This document shows, piece by piece, positions 19,313-38,043 of a stretch of DNA of 64,000 nucleotides (position 1 is the first letter of the stretch; every line of letters begins with the position of its first letter). This DNA is from Acidobacterium sp. S8 (lineage in GTDB: Bacteria > Acidobacteriota > Terriglobia > Terriglobales > Acidobacteriaceae), in the NCBI RefSeq assembly GCF_009765985.1, contig NZ_LMUM01000015.1, positions 186,001-250,000 of the forward strand. Reading direction: 5' to 3'. The notes beneath the pieces were generated by a model that worked only from the letters and a program-made list of their open reading frames with translations, was not told where the DNA came from and did not search any database. A program made the translations under genes and the position numbers.

Positions 19313-20554
19313 TTAAAATGTCACCGCGAGAGTGTGTAGCATCCTCGAATTTGGCTTCTCTATGTCCCAATCCGGACGTTCGTCTTTCAGCTGAAGTTCC
19401 GGCATTCTTTCGATCACTGTGCGGAATACGACCTGCGCTTCAGCCCGGGCAAGGGCAGCGCCGACGCAGAAATGAATTCCGTTGCCGAAGGCGATATGTC
19501 GGCTCTTCTGCCGTTGAATGTCGAAGCAGTCAGGATCGCTGAAATAAGCCGGGTCGCGATTCGCGGAATTAAGCATTTGAAAGACCATCTGCCCCGCTTG
19601 AATCGGCCTTCCACCCAGTTCCGTATCTTCTTTCATCAAGCGAGGCTGCCTGGCCACCGGGCTTTCGTAACGAAGAATCTCTTCGATCGCTGTTCCGAGC
19701 AACGACGAGTCGTTCTTCAGGTGCTGCCACTGGTCGTGGTGGCGTAACAACAGATACAGACCATTTCCAATCAGTGAAGTAGTTGTTTCATGGCCGGCAA
19801 CCAGGAGGGTGATGCAGGTGTTCAACAACTCTGGCTCGGAAAGCCGCTCCCCCTCCGACTCCGCTAACACCAGCTTGGTTATGAGATCCTCGCGTGGTTG
19901 ACGTCGCCTCTCTACCACCAGTTGCGACAGGTAAGCCTTGATCTCAATCAGCGCAGTCTGAGAGCGATCGAGGATGTGCTCGCCTGGCTTGTTGACTCCC
20001 TGGAATGCCAGGAGCGAGTCGGCCCACTTCTTGAACAAATGTTGATCGGCAGCAGGAGTCCCTAGTATCTCTGCAAGTACGCTGAATGGTAGAACGATCG
20101 CGAGATCCGCGATGATGTCCATCTCGCGTTTATCTTGTACCCTGTCGAGCGCCTCATTCACGATCTGCTGGATGCGTGGCCGCATCGCCTCTACCACCGT
20201 TACCGTGAGAGCCTTAGTTACCAACGAACGGAGCCGCGTATGATCGGGCGGATCGGAATGCAGGAGCCCTTTTGTGCGGTAATGATCTTCAAAGGGTTTG
20301 AATTTTGCACGCGTTTCAGCAGGTAGGTATTCCACCGCACGCGCGAGGCGTCCCTCATTTGAATAGCGGCAGACATCGCGAAAAGTAGTGATGATATCGT
20401 CGTATCGGGTGACGATCCAACCACCAATTGAATCGCTCCAATGCACGGGGTCTTCTTCACGCAGCCGATTCAGAATCGGATACGGGTCATAGAGAAATTC
20501 CTTCGATACCAGCGATTTATCCAGTTCAGAGATCGAGAGTTGCGCGATTGACAT
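19313..20554 (-). CDS. Cytochrome P450, soluble bacterial type
   Basis: A class I-like soluble P450 monooxygenase of about 413 residues with no membrane anchor. Seen in order: the I-helix VAGHETTTS with the oxygen-activating acid and Thr, the K-helix E-x-x-R (EILR), and the haem loop FGNGIHFCVG with axial Cys363. It would insert one oxygen atom in a C-H bond using electrons from a ferredoxin and reductase, and no such partner gene is present in the window. The frame is open from TTG 20563, but ATG 20554 is preferred. It faces the SGNH/oxygenase operon across a 190-base region that carries a putative IclR operator, so it is probably part of the same regulon. O-demethylation or hydroxylation of a sugar or aglycone is a guess. 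Confidence 0.92.
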   Translation of the reverse strand: MSIAQLSISELDKSLVSKEFLYDPYPILNRLREEDPVHWSDSIGGWIVTRYDDIITTFRDVCRYSNEGRLARAVEYLPAETRAKFKPFEDHYRTKGLLHSDPPDHTRLRSLVTKALTVTVVEAMRPRIQQIVNEALDRVQDKREMDIIADLAIVLPFSVLAEILGTPAADQHLFKKWADSLLAFQGVNKPGEHILDRSQTALIEIKAYLSQLVVERRRQPREDLITKLVLAESEGERLSEPELLNTCITLLVAGHETTTSLIGNGLYLLLRHHDQWQHLKNDSSLLGTAIEEILRYESPVARQPRLMKEDTELGGRPIQAGQMVFQMLNSANRDPAYFSDPDCFDIQRQKSRHIAFGNGIHFCVGAALARAEAQVVFRTVIERMPELQLKDERPDWDIEKPNSRMLHTLAVTF

Positions 20555-26297: not shown

Positions 26298-26525
26298 ATG
26301 CAAAAAATGGCTGCCGCACAATTCAAGGCTCAATGTCTAGCTGTGATGGATCAGGTGTCGCAAAGCGGTCGCGCCGTTGTGATCACCAAGCATGGCAAGC
26401 CTGTAGTGAAGTTGGTTCCAGCAAACGAAGGGGAGGACGAGATCTTCGGAGCTTTGGCAGGCATCGCCAGAATTGTGGGCGATATTGAGAACACTGTTCC
26501 GGCCAAAGATTGGGGAGTGGAGTGA
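26298..26525 (+). CDS. Phd/YefM-family antitoxin
   Basis: A 75-residue antitoxin of the Phd/YefM type. The N-terminal DNA-binding half (AAAQFKAQCLAVMDQV, then VVITKHGKPVVKLVP) is the family pattern, and the acidic C-terminal part would bind and block the toxin. AGGAGG is 6 bases before ATG 26298. A longer upstream frame without a Shine-Dalgarno is rejected. The stop overlaps the toxin start in a GTGA. It would both neutralise the PIN-domain RNase and repress its own promoter through the direct repeats just upstream. Confidence 0.88.
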   Translation: MQKMAAAQFKAQCLAVMDQVSQSGRAVVITKHGKPVVKLVPANEGEDEIFGALAGIARIVGDIENTVPAKDWGVE

Positions 26526-27720: not shown

Positions 27721-29475
27721 CTAATGAGCAGTTAGCATCCTGGCAGCATTAATGAGCGCGATATGAGATAGGGCCTGCGGAAAGTTTCCCATGAATCGGC
27801 CGTGATCCGGATCGTACTCCTCGGACAATAAGCCCACATCATTCCGCAGACTGATCAATTTTTCAAAAAGTCTCTCTGCATCACCCCAGCGTCCGGCTCC
27901 GCTGAGATTTTGAACCATCCAGAAAGAACAAGCTATGAAGGCCGATTCGCGACCTTTGCGAGAATTTGGCGAAAGACGATAAATGAATCCATCTTTGCTT
28001 AGTTTCTTCTGAATGACATCCATCGTGCTCTTGACACGCTCATCGTTGAACGGAAGAAAGCCAGAGATCGGCAGAAGCAACACCGAGGCGTCCAGGACAT
28101 TCGCATCGAAGGCCTGCACAAAACTTCCTAACTTCCGGTTGAATCCTCTCCTGCATATCTGTCGATGCAAACGTTCGCTCGCCACTTTCCATTCTTTAGA
28201 CTTTTTTTCGTTCGTGATTTCTACCCCGTGATGAAGAGTGAGCCACGCCATAGCCTTTGAATAGATGTAATGCTTCTTCTGATTTCGTTGTTCCCAAAGT
28301 CCGGACGCAGGAAGATGCCAGATAGATGCGACGTATTCCATGAGGTCGCGTTGCAAACGGAAAATTCGTTGATCCAGACGTATACCAGCGCGTTTCATGC
28401 TTATGATCGCATCCGAGATTTCACCGTATACGTCGAGCTGCAGCTGTTCCGAAGCATCATTTCCCATCCGCACCGGCTGGGACTTTCGATATCCCTGCAG
28501 CCATGGAAGCTCGAGTTCCGGCAGATGTCGTTCGCCCCGCATCCCATACATGATTTGCAGGTCTCTTGCATTGCTGCCAACGGCCTGAAGAAGCCAGTCC
28601 TGCCAGGCCCGGGCCTCGTCGTGATAGCCCACCGAGAGTAATGTTTCAAGTGTGAAAGCAGCGTCTCGAAGCCAGCAATAACGATAATCCCAGTTTCGGT
28701 CTCCGCCGATTCGTTCAGGCAGAGAGGTAGTCGGAGCCGCAACGATACCACCCGTAGGCCGGTAGGTAAGCGCCTTGAGCGTAATCAGCGACCGCTCCAC
28801 GGCTTCCCGCCACTCTCCCTCATATGTATTTAAGCCGCACCATTCCGACCAGAATCGTTCCGTTTGCTGCAAGGCCTTTCGCACATTGATTCGACGCGGA
28901 GGACTCTCTTGAGCTCGGGCATGGGTCAGAACGAAAGATCGGTATTCCCCTTGGGTCAACTTGAACTCGGCTGAGGCAATCTCGTTTTTCGTTCGTATCG
29001 GTTGTTGAGTGCGCAGATAAGCGACACCGGTGCCGGCAGCTGCTGCCCAGGCATTTCTTTCCCGGGCGCCAGTCCATGGAATCGTGCGTCCATAGTCGAA
29101 ACGAACACAGAGTTCCATCTGAACTGTCACTTTGCCCGCGAGACACTTTGCGATCCTCACAATATCTGAATGCGTCTCACGCAACGGCATGAAATCGGTA
29201 ACCAGGAGAGTGCCTGACGCCGTCTCGAAACGAGTCTCAAGAATCAGCGTATGTTCGCGATACCGCCGTGTAATTCTTTTGCAGCTATCCTTTGGCGCAA
29301 GCAGCCACCTGCCATTCTGATCTGTTCCGATAAGCGCGGCGAAACAGGCTGGAGATGAAAAGTCCGGCCAGCACAACCAGTCGATCGATCCGTTCTTTCC
29401 TACAAGCGCCGCTGTCTCACAATCGCCAATCAGCGCATAATCTTCGATCGCAAGAGCCACGCGGGCTATCCTCAC
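27721..29475 (-). CDS. GH15 glucoamylase/trehalase-like protein
   Basis: An inverting alpha-glucosidase-type protein of 584 residues with an N-terminal beta-sandwich and an alpha/alpha-six barrel. The family motifs are clear: GSIDWLCWPDFSS near residue 28, RNWDYRYCWLRDAAFT near 255, and the catalytic-region EEYDPDHGRFMGNFPQALSH near the C-terminus. No signal peptide, so cytoplasmic. GH15 members of this build include glucoamylases and trehalases, and the sequence alone does not decide between them. It starts at GTG 29475, divergent from the SDR gene 91 bases away. The two are often close together in Acidobacteriota stress- or storage-sugar clusters, which is context, not proof. Confidence 0.85.
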   Translation of the reverse strand: MRIARVALAIEDYALIGDCETAALVGKNGSIDWLCWPDFSSPACFAALIGTDQNGRWLLAPKDSCKRITRRYREHTLILETRFETASGTLLVTDFMPLRETHSDIVRIAKCLAGKVTVQMELCVRFDYGRTIPWTGARERNAWAAAAGTGVAYLRTQQPIRTKNEIASAEFKLTQGEYRSFVLTHARAQESPPRRINVRKALQQTERFWSEWCGLNTYEGEWREAVERSLITLKALTYRPTGGIVAAPTTSLPERIGGDRNWDYRYCWLRDAAFTLETLLSVGYHDEARAWQDWLLQAVGSNARDLQIMYGMRGERHLPELELPWLQGYRKSQPVRMGNDASEQLQLDVYGEISDAIISMKRAGIRLDQRIFRLQRDLMEYVASIWHLPASGLWEQRNQKKHYIYSKAMAWLTLHHGVEITNEKKSKEWKVASERLHRQICRRGFNRKLGSFVQAFDANVLDASVLLLPISGFLPFNDERVKSTMDVIQKKLSKDGFIYRLSPNSRKGRESAFIACSFWMVQNLSGAGRWGDAERLFEKLISLRNDVGLLSEEYDPDHGRFMGNFPQALSHIALINAARMLTAH

Positions 29476-29566: not shown

Positions 29567-30565
29567 ATGCCGCAAACACTCAATGTAGTGATCACGGGAG
29601 CTTCAGCCGGATTGGGACGAGCCATTGCTCATGAATTCGGCAAAACGGGCGCCCGGGTCGGATTGATTTCGCGTGATCTATCAGCGCTGGAAGCGACAGC
29701 GGTGGAAGTTGAACGTCTCGGAGGAACAGCGGCCACATATGCGGCTGATGTGAGCGACGACCAGGCTGGCGAGGCGGCCGCGTCGTCCTTCGAAGAACGG
29801 CTCGGCCCGATTGACATCTGGATCAACAATGCAATGGTTTCTGTATTCTCCCCGGTCAAGGAGATGGAAGCAGCCGAGTTCCGACGCGTCACCGAGGTGA
29901 ACTATCTTGGATACGTCCATGGCACGCTTGCCGCATTGAGGCGAATGCTTCCGCGGAATCGAGGCCGAATCATCCAGGTTGGATCGGCCTTGGCCGTAAG
30001 AAGCATACCTCTGCAATCCGCGTATTGCGCCACTAAACATGCTATCGTCGGTTTCACTGATTCGCTGCGCTGCGAGCTCATTCACGACAACAGCAACATA
30101 AAAGCGATCGTCGTTCAGATGCCGGCGATGAATACTCCACAATTTACCTGGGTAAAGAGCCGGCTTCCGCGTTTGCCGCAGCCAGTCCCTCCCATTTACG
30201 AACCCGAAGTAGGCGCCAGGGTGATTCTGCACGCCGCTCTCACCTCATCGCCGCGGCGCGAATACTGGGTCGGCGGGTCAACGGTCAAAGCCATCTTGGG
30301 GCAAAAGATTTTTCCGGGCATATTGGATTTCTATCTCGGAAAGACAGGCTACAATGCGCAGCAGCGCGAGGAGCAAGACTCTCCCGATCGGCTGAACAAT
30401 GTGTGGCATCCCGTTCCAACTACGCTCGGAGCGCATGGGCCATTTGATACGAAGTCCCGGCCGTTCAGCCTTGAGGCACAGGTATCAAAGCATCGTGGTT
30501 GGTTCCTTTTGGGATGCGGAGTGATCGGGGTCGCGATTTGCGCAAAGAAGCTGCTCGCTCGTTAG
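29567..30565 (+). CDS. SDR-family oxidoreductase with C-terminal membrane segment
   Basis: Classical SDR, 332 residues, longer than the family norm by about 80 residues. It has TGASAGLGRAI near residue 10, INNAMVS in the middle, and an intact catalytic Tyr/Lys pair in SAYCATKHA. The C-terminal part ends in a hydrophobic stretch (WFLLGCGVIGVAICAKKLLA) that could anchor it to the membrane. GGAGG lies before the ATG. The stop codon overlaps the GMC gene stop on the other strand. The substrate is unknown. SDRs of this longer type are common as stand-alone dehydrogenases in soil bacteria. Confidence 0.85.
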   Translation: MPQTLNVVITGASAGLGRAIAHEFGKTGARVGLISRDLSALEATAVEVERLGGTAATYAADVSDDQAGEAAASSFEERLGPIDIWINNAMVSVFSPVKEMEAAEFRRVTEVNYLGYVHGTLAALRRMLPRNRGRIIQVGSALAVRSIPLQSAYCATKHAIVGFTDSLRCELIHDNSNIKAIVVQMPAMNTPQFTWVKSRLPRLPQPVPPIYEPEVGARVILHAALTSSPRREYWVGGSTVKAILGQKIFPGILDFYLGKTGYNAQQREEQDSPDRLNNVWHPVPTTLGAHGPFDTKSRPFSLEAQVSKHRGWFLLGCGVIGVAICAKKLLAR

Positions 30566-32256
30566 GCGATCCTGGGGTTTCCTTTGAACTTGGTATAAGG
30601 CGGGGAGAGATCGTACCGGATGCCCGGTTCGGTTAGATCTCGACGATTCGAGAAGAAAATATTGTCCCCTTGCTTGATCAGATAATCTGCTGTGCGTGCG
30701 GCGAGAGCCTGTATCGTGAGACCAGGATTAGCGGAGCCCTGCGTCGGCAAAATGCTGCCATCACAGACAAATAGATTCGGAATATCGTGCGTACGGCCGA
30801 ACTTGTCGACGACCGAAGTGGATGGATCGCTTCCCATCCGCGAGGCACCTACCAGGTGAGCGAACCTCGATTCCTGCACAACCTGCTTCGCTCCCGCAGC
30901 CCACATAATTTCCATCACCTTATTTTTTCCAAACTCAATCAACTTCTTGTCATTGTCGTGAAGAGTGAAGGTCACCTTCGCGACCGGCAAACCATGTCGG
31001 TCTTTCTCCTCCGCCAATTCGACGCGATTTTCCTCCCACGGAAGGATTTCGCCCAGGACGCCGAGCGTTGCCCAGTGGTTGTAGTCCATCATGACGCGAC
31101 GCATACCCCAACCCCATGCTCCTATGGCTGCGACCATCTGTTTCGCAAACGCAACCGGAAGCGGTCCGACCGTCTGAACTGCAAAGCCGCGGGCGAATCC
31201 ACGACGCGGATCGGTTTCGTAGAATTCTTCGCTCAGGGCGTGCGCGGGTGGCGCTTTGTAAAGTCGAATGAGCTCTTCGAATCGGCCAGCGACGACATCG
31301 CCGGCCTGTGCCATCAGATATTTGCCGAGCGTCCCGCTCGAGTTCGCGAGACCGTGGCGATGGCCAGGACATGCGGAGTTAAGAAGCAATCTCGGCGTCT
31401 CAATCGCATATCCGGAGACGATGACAGCCCGGGATCGCTGAAAGTGTTCTTTCCCTTCGCGATCGAAGTAGAAGACACCGTCCACCCGGCCATCCTCACG
31501 CAGACTGACTCGGGAAGCCATCGCATGCGCGCGAATCTCAGCGCCATGAGAAATGGCATCGGGAACATGTGTGATGAGCGTACTGGCCTTCGCGCCCACC
31601 TTGCACCCTTGGATACAGAAGCCGCGATAGATGCAGTGAGGCCGATCGCCATGCGAAGCGGAGAGAATTGCGACCGGTCCGCCAGCAACTGATCGAATAC
31701 CGAGATTTGTGCAACCTCGCACCAGCACGTCGCCAACTCCACCAAGCGGATGGGGGCCATAAGGGTGGCCATGCGGATCGCCCCATGGAAACCACGCCGG
31801 ACCAGCAACAGGAATTTCACGCTCCAGTAGCTCGTAATAGGGCTTCAGGTCCCAATAAGACATGGGCCAATCGACGCCAACGCCGTCTTCGGAATACACG
31901 CGAAAATCCGAAGGATGAAAGCGCGGCGCGAAGGCAGCCCAATGAACGGAACCGCCCCCGACTCCTTTGCCGCTGTTGTTTGCGCCAAGTGCAAGAGGGT
32001 GCGTTCCGCCGGTGATGCGCAGATCGTTCCAGTACAGCTCATACGAACCTTTTTCGTCGCTGACCCAATCCTTCTCTGTATCCCAGAATGGGCCCGCTTC
32101 CAACCCGACCACGCGAAAACCTGCCCGCGCAAGCCGCTGCACCAATACCCCACCGGCGCTGCCCACGCCGACAATGCAATAGTCGACAGTCTCATTTTCT
32201 TTAAATCGACGCATCGGTGAGGGGAGCGTCTGCATTGGGCCGAGGCGGTGCGGCAT
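30562..32256 (-). CDS. GMC-family oxidoreductase (gluconate/sugar dehydrogenase large-subunit type)
   Basis: An FAD-dependent GMC-family oxidoreductase, 564 residues, related to the flavoprotein subunit of membrane gluconate and glucose dehydrogenases. The FAD-binding GVGSAGGV lies near residue 32, GVGGGSVHW follows, and the C-terminal active site shows His (AHLVGASRMG) and Asn (GSANPGLT). A short Cys cluster, C-x5-C-x3-C (CIYRGFCIQGC), resembles the iron-sulfur motif of FAD glucose dehydrogenases. No signal peptide. It is coupled to the subunit-3 gene by a TGATG junction and is the last gene of the minus-strand run. The electron acceptor is unclear because no cytochrome c gene is next to it. 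Confidence 0.86.
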   Translation of the reverse strand: MPHRLGPMQTLPSPMRRFKENETVDYCIVGVGSAGGVLVQRLARAGFRVVGLEAGPFWDTEKDWVSDEKGSYELYWNDLRITGGTHPLALGANNSGKGVGGGSVHWAAFAPRFHPSDFRVYSEDGVGVDWPMSYWDLKPYYELLEREIPVAGPAWFPWGDPHGHPYGPHPLGGVGDVLVRGCTNLGIRSVAGGPVAILSASHGDRPHCIYRGFCIQGCKVGAKASTLITHVPDAISHGAEIRAHAMASRVSLREDGRVDGVFYFDREGKEHFQRSRAVIVSGYAIETPRLLLNSACPGHRHGLANSSGTLGKYLMAQAGDVVAGRFEELIRLYKAPPAHALSEEFYETDPRRGFARGFAVQTVGPLPVAFAKQMVAAIGAWGWGMRRVMMDYNHWATLGVLGEILPWEENRVELAEEKDRHGLPVAKVTFTLHDNDKKLIEFGKNKVMEIMWAAGAKQVVQESRFAHLVGASRMGSDPSTSVVDKFGRTHDIPNLFVCDGSILPTQGSANPGLTIQALAARTADYLIKQGDNIFFSNRRDLTEPGIRYDLSPPYTKFKGNPRIA

Positions 32257-33008
32257 CAGTGGCTTCCTCCATGACCGTGCAGCGATCCATGTTCAGGAGG
32301 CGCACTATCTTCCTCTAACTCCGATAGCGAATCGACGGGAGCATTCCATTCGGAGCGCTGTTCGTCTTTCTCCCAAGGCTCTGGCAGACCGTTCTCAAGC
32401 CGCATGTATCCCCGCGGATATGCAGGACCACCAAAGCCGATTTCATCCCATGCCCAGGGATGCGAATAATAAGCCGTGATGCAGTCTTCCATGAGCATCG
32501 CCCAGAAGCGATGTACGGGCATCCGTTGCCATATCGAATTTTCCGGCTCAGGCTTCCCATCATGCAGGGATTTCAGAATCAGCTCTTGCCGGTGCACGCT
32601 GAGATCAGGAAAAGATTCGCGAAAGCGTTCCTGCGCCATCTCTTCAATCGCTTGGATCGCGAGTTTATATGCCTCCTGATCTGGCGGCATATCTTCATAG
32701 CGAAAGCCATTCAGTGAGTTCTTGTGAAGCCGTTCGTCGAGAATAGAGAGAATCGGAATTGTACGTCCCTCGGTTCGATCGTCCTGGGGCATCACCCGGT
32801 CAACCACCGCAGCGAGGAGTGCCGCCTGCTCTTGCGAAAAGAAGCGGATAGCCAGGGTCTGCTCGACACGTTTGGTGACTAGTGTTCTCGTTGCCTCTTC
32901 CCAGTTTTTCTTCTGAGCCATAGTGCTGTATCCGGCGTAATATCCCGGTTGGCTGAGATCGCGCTGCTCCCCGCCAGTTGCTTTATAAGGAAAGGACTTC
33001 CGGCTCAT
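32256..33008 (-). CDS. Gluconate 2-dehydrogenase subunit 3 family protein
   Basis: A 250-residue small-subunit protein of the gluconate 2-dehydrogenase subunit 3 family, recognised by the region FFSQEQAALLAAVVDRVMPQ followed by the Trp/Asp-rich C-terminal part (YYSHPWAWDEIGFGG, PAYPRGY). In known systems this chaperone-like subunit carries a Tat signal and takes the flavin subunit across the membrane. Here no twin-arginine signal is visible, so the complex may be cytoplasmic or rely on the membrane partner upstream. The C-terminus is acidic and His/Gly-rich. It is overlapped by the membrane-protein gene on one side and joined to the GMC gene by TGATG on the other. Confidence 0.85.
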   Translation of the reverse strand: MSRKSFPYKATGGEQRDLSQPGYYAGYSTMAQKKNWEEATRTLVTKRVEQTLAIRFFSQEQAALLAAVVDRVMPQDDRTEGRTIPILSILDERLHKNSLNGFRYEDMPPDQEAYKLAIQAIEEMAQERFRESFPDLSVHRQELILKSLHDGKPEPENSIWQRMPVHRFWAMLMEDCITAYYSHPWAWDEIGFGGPAYPRGYMRLENGLPEPWEKDEQRSEWNAPVDSLSELEEDSAPPEHGSLHGHGGSH

Positions 33009-33964
33009 TTTCGCTCCCTGCGCAGCAGACTGGCCATGATCCCGAGAAATCCGCAGGCCGCGAACAGCAGCGGGGCAAAGATCGGAGGCCCATAAAGAAT
33101 GTTATAAAGCGGCTTCTTGACTCCACCGGGCCGACGCACAATGCCGCGTGCGTGATAGAAAAACCCGACAGCTCCATCCGCGAGGGCAAGAGCAGAGACG
33201 GCGGGCAAAACAGTATTCGCGATTCGCCGGCTCTTCACGGCTCCCAGTCCCGAAGCCATCAACAATGGCGTCAACAAAACAGGTGTCCATTGGGCTTTGT
33301 AGCGAAAGTTCGTCTTGTAATGCGAATAGAGTGCTTCAAAGCCGCTGAAGAATGCCCATAACACTGTCAATGCAGACAGATGCTTCTGGAATCTTCCATA
33401 GCGCAGGTCGCTTCTCCAGTCGGAGTTTCCCCCTTCATGCCAGGAAGCAAGAAGTCCTCGCACATCGTGAAGATCTTCCTCCCGCCGCAGATACGAGGCC
33501 ATCAGGCCAAGATAGGCGCTCGTTCCGAAGAGCAAAGGAGCAAAGATCGGTGGCCCCATGACAATGTTCGTGACAGGAAGGCTCCAACCTCCGGGCTTTC
33601 GCGCGACACCACGCACGTGAAAGAAAAACCCAACAATGCCATCAGCGAGAGTAACGATGCTCACCCAACGTAGAACCGTGCGAGCAGCCAGACGGTTGAA
33701 AGCTCCTGACAATCCGGCGCAGGCCAGTGCTCCGCTCAGCATTACCGGCGTATACATCACCGGATTGCTGTAGCTGCCTTTGTAATGCTCATACCCAACT
33801 TCGAGGCCGCTAGCGACACTGGTCGCGGCAACGATCAGACAGAGGCTGCGTTGAAAGCAGCCTTCGCGCAGATGCTCGAGCGCTGTCGTTGCAGCTGTAG
33901 AAAACGGAGCGGGTAAATTACGATTCGCACTCCGCTCCAGTGCGGTAGTCAGAATGAAAGTCAC
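33005..33964 (-). CDS. Internally duplicated membrane protein, partner of the sugar dehydrogenase
   Basis: A 319-residue membrane protein with two copies of the same ~110-residue unit. Copy 1 (about 55-165) and copy 2 (about 205-315) share YxHYK...TPVxL, the segment LADGxVGFFxHxRGxxRxPGG, and GPPIFAPLLF...LGxMASxLRRE. Each copy has about four hydrophobic helices with conserved His residues that could bind a haem or metal, although this is only an idea. No database family comes to mind. It overlaps the subunit-3 gene by 4 bases, so it is probably the membrane anchor or electron-transfer partner of the GMC/subunit-3 pair, taking the place of the usual cytochrome c. The gene start at ATG 33964 is the first ATG. 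Confidence 0.72.
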   Translation of the reverse strand: MTFILTTALERSANRNLPAPFSTAATTALEHLREGCFQRSLCLIVAATSVASGLEVGYEHYKGSYSNPVMYTPVMLSGALACAGLSGAFNRLAARTVLRWVSIVTLADGIVGFFFHVRGVARKPGGWSLPVTNIVMGPPIFAPLLFGTSAYLGLMASYLRREEDLHDVRGLLASWHEGGNSDWRSDLRYGRFQKHLSALTVLWAFFSGFEALYSHYKTNFRYKAQWTPVLLTPLLMASGLGAVKSRRIANTVLPAVSALALADGAVGFFYHARGIVRRPGGVKKPLYNILYGPPIFAPLLFAACGFLGIMASLLRRERK

Positions 33965-34090: not shown

Positions 34091-35200
34091 TCATGTATTT
34101 CTCCAGGTAACGAATTGCTCCGCATCGCAATGCTTGAAGATGAGACCCATACCGAGCCGTGATCGATCCGGCTTCAACTCGCCATCTCTGGGTGGAATGA
34201 ATCCATCGAAAAACATCTTTTCAATACGGGCATGATCGTGGAAGTACTCGACGTGGCGAAACTTTGGAACTACACAACCGACGTGCATGTGAAGTGAAGG
34301 CGCGCAATGCGCGGACATGGGACACCCGAAACTTGCTGCGACGGCAGCTCCTTCCAGAAAGCCGGTAAATCCTTTGCACCGCGTCGCATCTAGTTGCAGT
34401 ACATCCACCGCTTCTGCCTCAAGCATCCTGCGAAAATATAACGAGTCGTATCCATATTCCCCGGCTGCAATCTCCATAGCGCCTGGAGCACCATCACGCA
34501 CTCGCCGAAGGCCATTGAGATCATCAGAGCTGACCGGTTCTTCGAACCATGTAACGTTGAAATCCTCGAACTTCTCCGCAAAAGCAATCGCCTGTCGTGC
34601 GTTGTAAGCTCCGTTCGCGTCCACAAATAGATTCGTAGATGGTCCCGCCGCTTCGCGAGCGGCGCGAACCCTCTCCAAATCTGCAGACGGTTCTGCGCCA
34701 ATTTTCATTTTTACGTTCTTCAAACCTTCCATGACCCAGCCGGACAACTGTGCAGCCAATTGCTGGTTGCTGTAAGTGGTGAATCCCCCGCTCCCGTAAG
34801 CAACAACGCTTGTATGCGCGGTGCCAAAAAGATCGACGAGAGAAGAACCTATTAGCTTGGCTTTTAGATCCCAGAGCGCTATGTCCAGCGCCGAGATCGC
34901 CATGGATGCAATGCCTCGGCTACCGTCGTTTCGCACCTGCTGCAGCATGGATGCATGAAGACTTGGAATGTCTAGCGCCGACCTATGCAACAGATATTTG
35001 CCTGCAAGCTGATCAGCCACGAACGCGGTGGCTTTATTGCCGTATGTGTACCCAAGTCCGAACTGGTTGGCTGCATGAATTTCGCAGACAATAAGCGTCG
35101 TCGAATCCCATCGTAAGGTGCCGTCACCTTCAGGAGCATCGGTCGGTATCGTATAGGCGTAAACATCCACCTTCTCTACGGAAATTTCCGACAGTGTCAT
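34091..35200 (-). CDS. Enolase-superfamily dehydratase/racemase (mandelate racemase-muconate lactonizing group)
   Basis: A 369-residue enzyme of the enolase superfamily. The capping domain fills about residues 1-120. The barrel shows KMKIG with the K-x-K base, metal ligands in FVDANGAYN (Asp), WFEEPV (Glu) and AAGEYGY (Glu), and the C-terminal base region with SAHCAPSLHMH (His). Members of this group dehydrate sugar acids such as galactonate, or racemise and lactonise related acids. Given the nearby sugar dehydrogenase subunits, an aldonate dehydratase making a 2-keto-3-deoxy acid is reasonable. It is 50 bases downstream of the ThDP enzyme gene and 126 bases upstream of the membrane-protein gene on the same strand. 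Confidence 0.85.
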   Translation of the reverse strand: MTLSEISVEKVDVYAYTIPTDAPEGDGTLRWDSTTLIVCEIHAANQFGLGYTYGNKATAFVADQLAGKYLLHRSALDIPSLHASMLQQVRNDGSRGIASMAISALDIALWDLKAKLIGSSLVDLFGTAHTSVVAYGSGGFTTYSNQQLAAQLSGWVMEGLKNVKMKIGAEPSADLERVRAAREAAGPSTNLFVDANGAYNARQAIAFAEKFEDFNVTWFEEPVSSDDLNGLRRVRDGAPGAMEIAAGEYGYDSLYFRRMLEAEAVDVLQLDATRCKGFTGFLEGAAVAASFGCPMSAHCAPSLHMHVGCVVPKFRHVEYFHDHARIEKMFFDGFIPPRDGELKPDRSRLGMGLIFKHCDAEQFVTWRNT

Positions 35201-35250: not shown

Positions 35251-36996
35251 TTACACGAGTTCGCGAACCTTATCATGCGCATTCGTCAGCGCTATTTTCA
35301 TGCGGTTCGGTTCGCCGCGCATCAACGCCTCAGCCAGCTTGAGGGCCTGGGATGCCTTGATCTTTGCCGGCATCGGAGGGGTGAATTCATCAACAACTGC
35401 CTCAATCAGAACAGGACCGGGACGTCCCACGACACTATCGAGTTGAGCGCCGCAGGTCGCCGGGTCTTCAATCTGGATGGCCTCGATTCCGGCGCCACGC
35501 GCGATCGTTACAAAATCCGCAGGGTAGAGATCGCAGGCATATTCAGGATTTCCGAGGAATACCATCTGTTCCCACTTGATCTGTCCCAAAGTATTGTTCT
35601 TGATCACGATGATCTTGATGTTGAGCTTGTACGCTGCGACGGTAATCAGCTCGCCCAGCAGCATGCTTAGCCCACCATCGCCAATAATGCAATAGACTGG
35701 CCGCTCAGGATATGCGACCGCCGCGGCGATCGCATAGGGCAGGCCGCATGCCATGGTTGCAAGATTTCCCGAACAGCTATGCTTCTGTCCTCGCAAGGCA
35801 GGCACGTAACGCGCCCACCAGGTTGTGATCGTTCCGGAATCAGAAGTAACAATTGCATTCGACGGAATACGCTTCCCCAGCTCCCAGCCCACTACCTGAG
35901 GTTTCATCGGCTTGTCCGGACGTGTTCCGCGCTCCTCCATGAGCTTCTGCCACTCTGCTTTGGCCTTCTGAGCTTTCTCAAGAAAGCCCTTATCATGCTT
36001 CTCCAGAAGAGGAAGAAGTGCGCGGATTGTATTCTTCGCATCCCCAACCAAGCCAACATCCGCGGGGTGACGAAGACTGATTCGCTGTGGATCGATATCA
36101 ATCTGTACACATTTGACTGACCCTGGCTCGGGCAGAAATTCGATATACGGGAACGATGTTCCAACCATTAGAAACGTGTCGCACCCTTCTATGGCGTCTT
36201 GCGAAGGTTCGGTTCCAAGCAGACCAATTCCACCCGTGGTGTATGGGCTGTCATCCGGCACCGCAGCTTTACCGAGAAGCGCTTTGATGATCGGCGCACC
36301 GAGCGTCTCTGCGAGTTCTTCAAGTTCTTGAGTGGCGTGTAATGCGCCTTGACCAGCCAGAATCGCGATCTTTTTTCCACGGTTGAGAATATCCGCGGCA
36401 TGCTCCAACTCGATTCGTGCTGGTATCTGCTCGAAGTAAGCCGGGACTGCCGATGTATGGTGAACAGGGTTCCGCTCCGACCGGCCTTTCTTAATCTCCT
36501 GCACCTGCACGTCCACCGGAATCGTAATGTGAGCCACACCACGGTGGGACAGTGCTGTCCGTATCGCTAGATCGGCTACGCTTTCCATGTGCGCGCCGCT
36601 CATGATCCGCTCGTTATAGACAGCGACATCGATGAAAAGCTTATCGAGCGCCACGTCCTGCTGAGTAAAGGTGCCGATTAGATCACTATGCTGCAGTCCC
36701 GTAATCGCGAGGACTGGCGCGTGGTCCATCTTCGCGTCATACAGCCCGTTAAGAAGATGAATGCCTCCCGGACCGGAAGTCGCAATACACACTCCCAGCT
36801 TGCCGGTGAACTTCGCGTAGGCACAGGCCATAAAAGCCGCCGCCTCTTCATGACGAACATGAATGAACCGGATCCGCTCCTGCTGTTTGCGGAGAGCTTC
36901 AAAAACTCCATTGATGCCATCGCCCGGCAGACCAAACACAGTATCAACGCCCCACGCGAGGAGCCGTTCTACAAGTACGTCGGACGCATCAATCAT
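35251..36996 (-). CDS. Thiamine-diphosphate-dependent enzyme (pyruvate oxidase/acetolactate synthase-like)
   Basis: A ThDP enzyme of 581 residues with the standard three-domain fold. The N-terminal domain has the conserved Glu in HVRHEEAAA, the middle domain is of FAD/ADP-binding type, and the C-terminal domain has the ThDP motif GDGGLSML followed by NNTLGQIKWEQ. Pyruvate oxidase (PoxB-like) or acetolactate-synthase-like chemistry is expected; 2-keto acid decarboxylation is common to all. The open frame extends to 37227, but ATG 36996 (MIDASDVL), preceded by GGAG, begins the family N-terminus and is chosen. It leads the minus-strand run with the enolase-type dehydratase. The exact reaction is not certain. 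Confidence 0.88.
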   Translation of the reverse strand: MIDASDVLVERLLAWGVDTVFGLPGDGINGVFEALRKQQERIRFIHVRHEEAAAFMACAYAKFTGKLGVCIATSGPGGIHLLNGLYDAKMDHAPVLAITGLQHSDLIGTFTQQDVALDKLFIDVAVYNERIMSGAHMESVADLAIRTALSHRGVAHITIPVDVQVQEIKKGRSERNPVHHTSAVPAYFEQIPARIELEHAADILNRGKKIAILAGQGALHATQELEELAETLGAPIIKALLGKAAVPDDSPYTTGGIGLLGTEPSQDAIEGCDTFLMVGTSFPYIEFLPEPGSVKCVQIDIDPQRISLRHPADVGLVGDAKNTIRALLPLLEKHDKGFLEKAQKAKAEWQKLMEERGTRPDKPMKPQVVGWELGKRIPSNAIVTSDSGTITTWWARYVPALRGQKHSCSGNLATMACGLPYAIAAAVAYPERPVYCIIGDGGLSMLLGELITVAAYKLNIKIIVIKNNTLGQIKWEQMVFLGNPEYACDLYPADFVTIARGAGIEAIQIEDPATCGAQLDSVVGRPGPVLIEAVVDEFTPPMPAKIKASQALKLAEALMRGEPNRMKIALTNAHDKVRELV

Positions 36997-38043
36997 TTTT
37001 ATCTCCGGAAACGGAATGGTCTTTCGTGGCTGGACACACAAGCTTGGACGCGCATTTGTTCGCCGGGGTTTTACGTCCGAACAGATGAGCAGACGAGACA
37101 ACCTCCATGACATAGATCTGAAGGCTGAATGAAACACATCTTCCGCCGTTCGCGTCCAAAACGTCGAGAGAGCTATACGCGTGCGAAAATTCCAGGGTGT
37201 GAACCGCGAGTCTTCGCTTTCTCTCAAGCAAGGCAGGTATCATACAGAATCATACAAAACCAATACATAGAGAGTTATGACCAGGACGCATTGCTGTTTT
37301 GGTCATGAATTATCTCTACTGAAAGATCAAAATTCATTTTTCCCGTAGAAGCAGCGATTGCTCTGATGAGCGCCAGGCACTTTAGCACTCGCGATCAAAG
37401 TCTGTAGTTGGAGAGCGTTCGAATACGCATGCGAAAGCGCTGTGTTGTCGAAGACAACCCAAACGTTACTTCCGACAACGGCCTTCGTATAACCATGTAG
37501 AGATTCTCGATGAGATTGCCACCCCTCACAATCAGGTCATCGCTCTGATCGTTATTGAAGACAACACCTGGAAACAGCTGCAAATAGCGCGAGAAATCTC
37601 CATTGCATTTGACGCCAGTACACCTACCACAATCGCCAACCGTGTATTGACCATATTGCCTCCACCTTGCTCTTATCGGCGGCGATGGGCAATGCAGTTG
37701 ATTAGAAAGTGCCAACAACCGGGATTAGAGAAGTTTCACTTGGGGGTCCTTAATGCCTTAAAAAGCGACAGAGCCGCTGCGGCGGGTTCTTCCGCTTAAT
37801 GACTCGGAGATACGGTTTATCGTTGCTTTGAAAATGGCTGTTCGTCGGGTGCCTAGAGTCAAACAACCACTTTACGATGAAAGACATCGTTTCTCCTGTG
37901 CGACATAATGAAATATTCGACGCTTGCTACTAGGCCGCAACCACAGGAGGGAGCCGCGCAAAATCAAACGCACGCGGCGCAGCGCGAAAGTTGGCAACCG
38001 CGGTTTAGCTGCTCAACCCTTCACAGCACATCCGCATACGCGC
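36997..38043. other. Long non-coding stretch with decayed fragments, left boundary of the integrative element
   Basis: About 1050 bases with no intact gene. It contains a TonB plug-domain remnant at 37491-37601 and an inverted repeat with ATGACCA/TGGTCAT arms (37277-37283 and 37300-37306). The left edge of the integrative element probably lies here, but no copy of the tRNA 3' end was found to mark it. Confidence 0.55.
37491..37601 (-). pseudogene. Remnant of a TonB-dependent receptor plug domain
   Basis: A 37-residue segment inside an otherwise meaningless 107-codon frame matches the plug-domain signature of TonB receptors: SRYLQLFPGVV, then NNDQSDDLIVRGGN and ENLYMV. Similarity ends abruptly on both sides, and the neighbouring frames suggest indels. 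It is read as a decayed gene fragment. Confidence is limited by its short length. Confidence 0.45.

Follow-up and report, generated by a model that had tools for sequence, protein, structure and literature searches.

The closest described relatives of the gene set reported here are the FAD-dependent glucose (GDH), fructose (FDH) and gluconate dehydrogenase complexes. In the published description of the Burkholderia cepacia GDH, Cys212, Cys218 and Cys222 are the ligands of a 3Fe-4S cluster, His105 may bind FAD covalently, and Cys213 forms a disulphide bond with the small subunit; in the known enzymes, the 3Fe-4S cluster passes electrons to a cytochrome c subunit (PMC6719666).

The window, as we call the whole 64,000-nucleotide stretch of Acidobacterium sp. 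S8 DNA that was analysed, codes for a GMC oxidoreductase (GMC), a protein of the gluconate 2-dehydrogenase subunit 3 family (Sub3) and a duplicated membrane protein (MEM). This system is a Tat-less variant of that known kind of dehydrogenase, and its membrane subunit is unclassified. A non-exhaustive literature search found no paper on the gene set or its membrane partner.

Gene order and internal duplication of the membrane protein

The initial annotation had described a membrane protein fused into a sugar-dehydrogenase operon and overlapping the subunit 3 gene, itself next to the GMC gene. The gene order is as it described: the MEM and Sub3 genes overlap by 4 nt (ATGA) and those of Sub3 and GMC by 1 nt (TGATG), and thus the three proteins are probably translated together. 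However, the term 'fused' was loose, MEM being the product of a separate, overlapping neighbour gene. Similarly, the family matches of Sub3 and GMC agree with a dehydrogenase (Table 1), but the word 'sugar' is only deduced from these families. A promoter and terminator scan was uninformative, with fewer sites than in shuffled sequence. The family match of the thiamine-diphosphate (ThDP) enzyme encoded further along begins near residue 80, and its true start is therefore probably downstream. The SDR oxidoreductase has a hydrophobic C-terminal stretch that resembles a membrane anchor.

Table 1. Features of the locus, in window coordinates
Feature	Position	Strand	Description
GH15 protein	27721..29475	-	TreH-type trehalases closest, under curated cut-off; frequent cassette member
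SDR oxidoreductase	29567..30565	+	Convergent; frequent cassette member
GMC oxidoreductase	30562..32256	-	PF05199/PF00732; closest in the PDB are FAD-glucose and fructose dehydrogenase catalytic subunits
GMC Cys208/Cys214/Cys218	31603..31635	-	Aligned to Cys212/218/222, which bind 3Fe-4S in Burkholderia cepacia GDH
Sub3, gluconate 2-dehydrogenase subunit 3 family, without Tat signal	32256..33008	-	PF13618, E 1e-28
MEM, duplicated membrane protein	33005..33964	-	319 aa, GTG start; eight long helices predicted, two four-helix units
MEM unit 2, residues 187-317	33014..33406	-	From self-alignment; modelled alone, four long helices, pLDDT 83
His271 codon, unit 2, counterpart of His116	33152..33154	-	Invariant
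His215 codon, unit 2, counterpart of His60	33320..33322	-	Invariant
MEM unit 1, residues 32-162	33479..33871	-	64 identities with unit 2 over 131 positions
His116 codon, unit 1, end of helix 3	33617..33619	-	Invariant
His60 codon, unit 1, end of helix 1	33785..33787	-	Invariant
Enolase-superfamily (mandelate racemase-like) protein, possibly an acid-sugar dehydratase	34091..35200	-	Linkage frequent in relatives
Thiamine-diphosphate (ThDP) enzyme	35251..37227	-	Best PDB match: pyruvate dehydrogenase [cytochrome], 3ey9

A second whole cassette was detected by tblastn on contig C21 of the same genome, with identities of 84% for MEM, 81% for Sub3, 93% for GMC, 79% for the mandelate racemase-like protein, 88% for the SDR, 88-95% for the ThDP enzyme and 80-81% for the GH15 protein, the latter two being each in two pieces. 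The genome also harbours a third Sub3/GMC pair (locus L053, 4708-5412 and 3074-4660) of the ordinary exported type, with a Tat signal; the CX5CX3C motif was not found in this pair.

MEM is made of two homologous halves. An ungapped alignment of its residues 32-162 with residues 187-317 covers 131 positions at 49% identity, and the Smith-Waterman score of one half against the other is 316, whereas 1000 shuffles of the second half gave a mean of 30, an SD of 5 and a maximum of 52. The HYK, LADGxVGFFxHxRG and GPPIFAPLLF motifs are present in both units. The duplication and motifs first reported are thus genuine, but the unit comprises about 131 residues rather than the ~110 proposed. AlphaFold2 predicts eight long helices for the whole protein (pLDDT 79, pTM 0.78), and the single unit, modelled with 36 unit sequences, was predicted to form the four long helices listed in Table 1.

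Genetic linkage, export signals and respiratory neighbours

The linkage of MEM with the dehydrogenase was analysed by script in 51 loci, nine of them from the window genome and its relatives (window included), 26 from genome contigs and 16 from plasmids; we excluded one locus at a contig end (L039), a cytochrome-linked one (L010) and two that duplicate others (L011 and L012). A Sub3 gene adjoins MEM in all 51 loci, which belong to Acidobacteriota, Pseudomonadota, Deinococcota and Actinomycetota, and the MEM-Sub3 linkage is ancient. GMC matches were obtained for 50 loci, the contig of the remaining one stopping after Sub3. Sub3 and GMC form a single polypeptide in Deinococcus D7000, and one or both of their frames look interrupted in L019, L025, L034, L040 and L049.

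The cassette is patchily distributed, as proteins of the window type or of a sister type described below were found in nine of 61 relatives (one of them with the sister type) and, class-wide, in 10 of 200 genomes (two with the sister type). Cultured relatives with the same cassette include Silvibacterium bohemicum and Acidicapsa dinghuensis. The cassette is also present in plasmid records of Burkholderiaceae, Rhizobiales, Acetobacteraceae, Deinococcus and one actinobacterium. We analysed 16 plasmid cassettes, 13 of them from a set of 20 plasmid records and three from a further search. With plasmid carriers in so many lineages, the cassette looks horizontally spread. According to an incomplete gene table of these 16 cassettes, a ThDP enzyme is annotated in at least 14 and an enolase-superfamily protein in at least 12, and SDR and GH15 genes are common. 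A gene labelled 'sensory rhodopsin transducer' accompanies the cassette, either within it or next to it, in four plasmid records (L041, L048, L049 and L152). Acidobacterial-like cassettes, with MEM at 62-64% to that of the window, are also present on contigs labelled Verrucomicrobiota and Betaproteobacteria (L028 and L029), by either transfer or mis-binning.

The GMC proteins keep the cysteines that bind 3Fe-4S in the Burkholderia enzyme. The window GMC has the CX5CX3C motif (Table 1) and a His residue at the position aligned to Burkholderia His105, and the motif C(V/I/T)YRGxCxxxC occurs in 47 of the 50 MEM-linked GMC matches, the other three (L004, L032 and L034) being cut or interrupted there. 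In contrast, the equivalent of Cys213, which makes the intersubunit disulphide bond in the Burkholderia enzyme, is Ile in the window GMC, and the relatives read have Ile, Val or Thr at this position.

The export signal distinguishes the two forms of the dehydrogenase. None of the 51 MEM-linked Sub3 proteins has an N-terminal Tat motif; L045 was flagged by the script and discounted, the match being internal to the domain. We carried out a census of Sub3 in 61 related genomes, which yielded 97 matches, nine of them MEM-linked and 88 unlinked. No Tat-like start was found for the nine MEM-linked proteins, whereas all 86 unlinked proteins that could be judged have one, as determined by script for 77 and by eye for nine (L118, L134, L165, L176, L180, L207, L208, L212 and L214). 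The two that were not counted are L205, at a contig end, and L192, whose frame is interrupted and has a Tat-like stretch in another frame. This contrast indicates that MEM accompanies an unexported form of the dehydrogenase, and the sequences therefore suggest that the enzyme is probably cytosolic.

We searched for linked cytochrome c genes by script in the window and through annotation in the 16 plasmid records. Between positions 20000 and 48000 of the window, no cytochrome c gene was found among frames of at least 100 aa scanned for CxxCH, the lone frame with this motif (144 aa, at 26410) being read as spurious. The absence of a cytochrome c had already been pointed out in the initial annotation, which placed MEM 'in place of' it. 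That view is strengthened by the conservation of the 3Fe-4S cysteines, the lack of a nearby cytochrome c and the distribution of Tat signals (0/51 of the MEM-linked versus 86/86 of the unlinked Sub3 proteins).

Respiratory genes adjoin three of the 16 plasmid cassettes. Pyruvate dehydrogenase [cytochrome] (PoxB), the closest structure to the ThDP enzyme, is quinone-dependent, and together with these respiratory genes a PoxB-like neighbour points to the quinone pool. Terminal oxidase genes are near GMC in L043 and L147, with a cytochrome bd oxidase one gene after GMC in Burkholderia multivorans and cytochrome c oxidase (cox) genes directly downstream of GMC in Paraburkholderia sp. D15; a third cassette has Rieske/cytochrome b genes ahead of the ThDP gene. 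Two plasmid cassettes count against the view of MEM as a stand-in for the cytochrome c: that of Methylocystis has a c-type cytochrome gene just before the ThDP gene, and that of Nitrobacter has a cytochrome c3-family gene alongside, on the opposite strand.

Invariant histidines, sister proteins and predicted topology

Family searches did not classify MEM. The window protein has no Pfam or NCBIfam match at E<=1, and no match above the NCBIfam cut-off was obtained for four other family proteins. We rejected known-family labels for seven relatives, one of the sister type, whose Pfam matches have E values of 0.17 or worse and are under the cut-off, and for two sister proteins with matches to Rhomboid (0.004), HlyIII (0.006) and RDD (0.2), all under the cut-off. 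PADLOC gave no match to MEM, a PDB sequence search only two chance ornithine carbamoyltransferase rows (E 0.6-0.7), and a PDB search with MEM profiles no match. Homology with NrfD was also rejected, as hhalign of 15 MEM-family sequences against 20 NrfD sequences (PF03916) gave a Prob of 0.7 over 13 columns.

Structural comparisons were similarly generic. The best Foldseek E values were 0.12 for the whole model and 0.26 for the single unit. With VIA, the best Z values, 7.2 for the whole model (with an IgE receptor chain) and 11.9 for the unit (with a pectin methylesterase inhibitor), are within the range common for helical bundles. A gamma-carboxylase (9bvq; Z 6.5, rmsd 5.2 over 205 residues) is tied with unrelated chains in that same range for the whole model and is not among the matches listed for the unit, which also include copper-storage proteins and de novo haem bundles. 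Neither PsrC/NrfD nor cytochrome b561-type folds appear among the fold matches listed, which does not speak against either.

The initial annotation had speculated that repeated His residues might hold a haem or another cofactor, a suggestion that hinged on their conservation in orthologues. His60, His116, His215 and His271 are invariant in all 24 full-length MEM orthologues, and both His positions of the unit are occupied by His in 81 of 81 units, taken from 43 proteins including the products of single-unit genes in two Deinococcus, one Frondihabitans and two acidobacterial genomes. The suggestion has thus withstood this comparison. Of the 22 positions tallied, five are identical throughout the 81 units: the two His, one Gly and two Pro. 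In the models, the two His of each unit are close to the ends of helices 1 and 3, which end at residues 63 and 122 in unit 1, and near the same end of the bundle; such a pair may suit a single haem b, the head group of a quinone or a metal in each unit.

The position of Glu55 is occupied by Glu or Asp in 80 of the 81 units. The two His and this acidic residue might thus form a non-haem Cu, Fe or Zn site in each unit, and copper-storage proteins rank high among the four-helix bundles that the unit model resembles, though below a meaningful level. However, this fold resemblance is generic and no known metal-protein family matches MEM by sequence, making such a site very improbable.

As mentioned above, the unit also occurs singly, as its own gene, in some genomes. 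In Deinococcus D7000 and AJ005, Sub3 is preceded by two small genes. We considered whether these are split copies of the units and rejected this, as the upstream gene lacks the motifs in both records. Its product in D7000 is VKOR-like (E 4e-5, below the Pfam cut-off), and hence D7000 and AJ005 carry one single-unit gene each. In two Deinococcus plasmids, the VKOR-like small gene is directly before the single-unit MEM gene (L041 5625-6023 and L049 5574-5963).

Searching with a unit profile revealed a second type of proteins, the sister family. In the phylum, a sister-protein query matched 16 of 297 genomes, 10 of them clearly with the sister type, five with the window type and one unclear (L090). 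The two families are homologous (hhalign Prob 99, E 6e-20, 236 columns) with all four His aligned, and these are kept in 20 of 20 aligned proteins of both types. In all 13 loci read (L010, L064, L065 and L077-L086), the sister gene immediately follows a gene whose product has CxxCH motifs. This product has eight such motifs in 10 loci, seven in L010 and L065 (cut) and one in L064 (cut); the one scanned, from L077, belongs to PF13447 and is hydroxylamine oxidoreductase-like (HAO-like). In a unit tree, the N- and C-terminal units of the sister family cluster together, apart from those of the window family (support 95/97). This is only suggestive of an independent duplication in each branch, as the tree has long branches and an unsettled bootstrap.

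A passive membrane anchor, or a transporter or channel for the substrate or product, would need no redox cofactor, and the His would then be structural or bind the substrate. The lack of a match between MEM and known cofactor-binding families is compatible with such a role, as are the conserved Gly and Pro positions, which could be structural. However, the conservation of the His in 81 of 81 units and the partnership of the sister family with a cytochrome c instead of a sugar enzyme argue against it, and the 3Fe-4S cluster would be left without an obvious acceptor. We therefore regard this role as doubtful.

The sister family opens a broader reading, which we propose tentatively. MEM might be the founding member of an undescribed superfamily of four-helix, two-His electron-transfer modules that link different redox enzymes to the quinone pool, namely cytosolic flavin/3Fe-4S GMC dehydrogenases in one branch and HAO-like octahaem cytochromes c in the other. 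The unit would be used singly or duplicated, perhaps on more than one occasion, and the link would be a haem b or a new type of quinone site.

The orientation of MEM was analysed on the basis of the positive-inside rule. In all 38 two-unit proteins, Lys and Arg are denser near the membrane on the N-terminal face (36 of 38 by raw count), and they are more numerous on that face in 13 of 13 sister proteins. The bias is weak for the window MEM itself, with 18 Lys and Arg versus 12 and net charges of about +8 versus +11. Such a bias would turn the His face towards the periplasm and away from the dehydrogenase, which is awkward if that enzyme is cytosolic. Moreover, all invariant His are at one face, leaving no obvious haem chain across the membrane. 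If the His face is indeed outside, either MEM conducts electrons across the membrane or its docking and redox faces differ.

In the former case, MEM would receive electrons from Sub3/GMC, docked at the inner face, and deliver them to a periplasmic acceptor through a haem b that the His hold near the outer face. The charge bias favours this arrangement in both subfamilies. It is also in line with the location of the sister genes next to multihaem cytochrome c genes, whose products are periplasmic by family, with the cox operon directly after GMC in one plasmid and with the c-type cytochrome gene before the ThDP gene in another. However, the positions tallied include no further set of conserved ligands towards the inner face, and no gene for a periplasmic acceptor is linked in the window. 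On balance, we consider a trans-membrane conduit unlikely.

Proposed role and comparison with known systems

We propose that MEM anchors a Tat-less, probably cytosolic FAD/3Fe-4S GMC dehydrogenase to the membrane and serves as the subunit that accepts its electrons, in place of the cytochrome c, and we give this reading a probability of about 0.5. The cytosolic location, the complex, the cofactor, the quinone and the substrate are all deduced. Beyond Sub3 and GMC, MEM is the only partner in every locus, and its relatives partner an electron carrier, which makes electron transfer the most economical role. Tight linkage, the missing cytochrome and export signal and the unchanged four His together indicate that MEM is probably the route of the electrons to the membrane.

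In the proposed mechanism, electrons from a polyol or aldose substrate would pass to FAD and then to the 3Fe-4S cluster of GMC, held by Sub3, and from there through MEM to the quinone pool. MEM would thereby occupy the place of the c-type cytochrome of the periplasmic relatives. Each unit would form a four-helix membrane bundle, with two invariant His near one membrane face that would most likely hold a b-type haem or form a quinone site, and the two bundles, fused in MEM, would pair up. A tentative pathway can be drawn from the families of the neighbouring gene products alone. Trehalose might be hydrolysed to glucose by the GH15 protein, and glucose oxidised to gluconate by GMC/Sub3/MEM; the enolase-superfamily protein might then convert gluconate to a 2-keto-3-deoxy sugar acid, leading on to pyruvate, which the ThDP enzyme might oxidise. 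Electrons would thus enter the membrane twice.

If this proposal is correct, proteins that are annotated as 'hypothetical protein' form a family of respiratory subunits, and GMC dehydrogenases can feed the membrane in a second, cytosolic way, in addition to the periplasmic route through cytochrome c. The octahaem cytochromes would gain a candidate membrane partner in the same module. Those who build direct-electron-transfer sensors would also take an interest in a dehydrogenase that brings its own small membrane acceptor. The MEM family is larger and more interesting than the window alone reveals.

Among known systems, the vitamin K-dependent gamma-carboxylase, which uses quinol, gives a weak structural alignment of its membrane part over most of the MEM model, with a Z value within the range common for helical bundles; we found no sequence relation and its partners are different. 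The NrfD/PsrC subunits (PF03916) pass electrons between a redox partner and quinone and, like the MEM model, are made of two four-helix bundles, but no sequence relation or Pfam match to MEM was found. The octahaem-linked sister protein is a homologous two-unit protein with the same four His; it differs from the window family in having a multihaem cytochrome c as a partner rather than GMC/Sub3, and it lacks the RxGGW loop.

Finally, the GDH, FDH and gluconate dehydrogenase complexes (6a2u, 7w2j) share with the window set a GMC subunit with the aligned His105, a possible FAD link, and 3Fe-4S cysteines, and a Sub3/hitchhiker partner (PF13618) whose gene adjoins that of GMC. They differ from it in that the window set is devoid of the multihaem cytochrome c subunit, of the Tat signal on Sub3 and of the intersubunit disulphide cysteine. 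In the place of the GDH/FDH cytochrome, the window has MEM, an unrelated, duplicated membrane protein.
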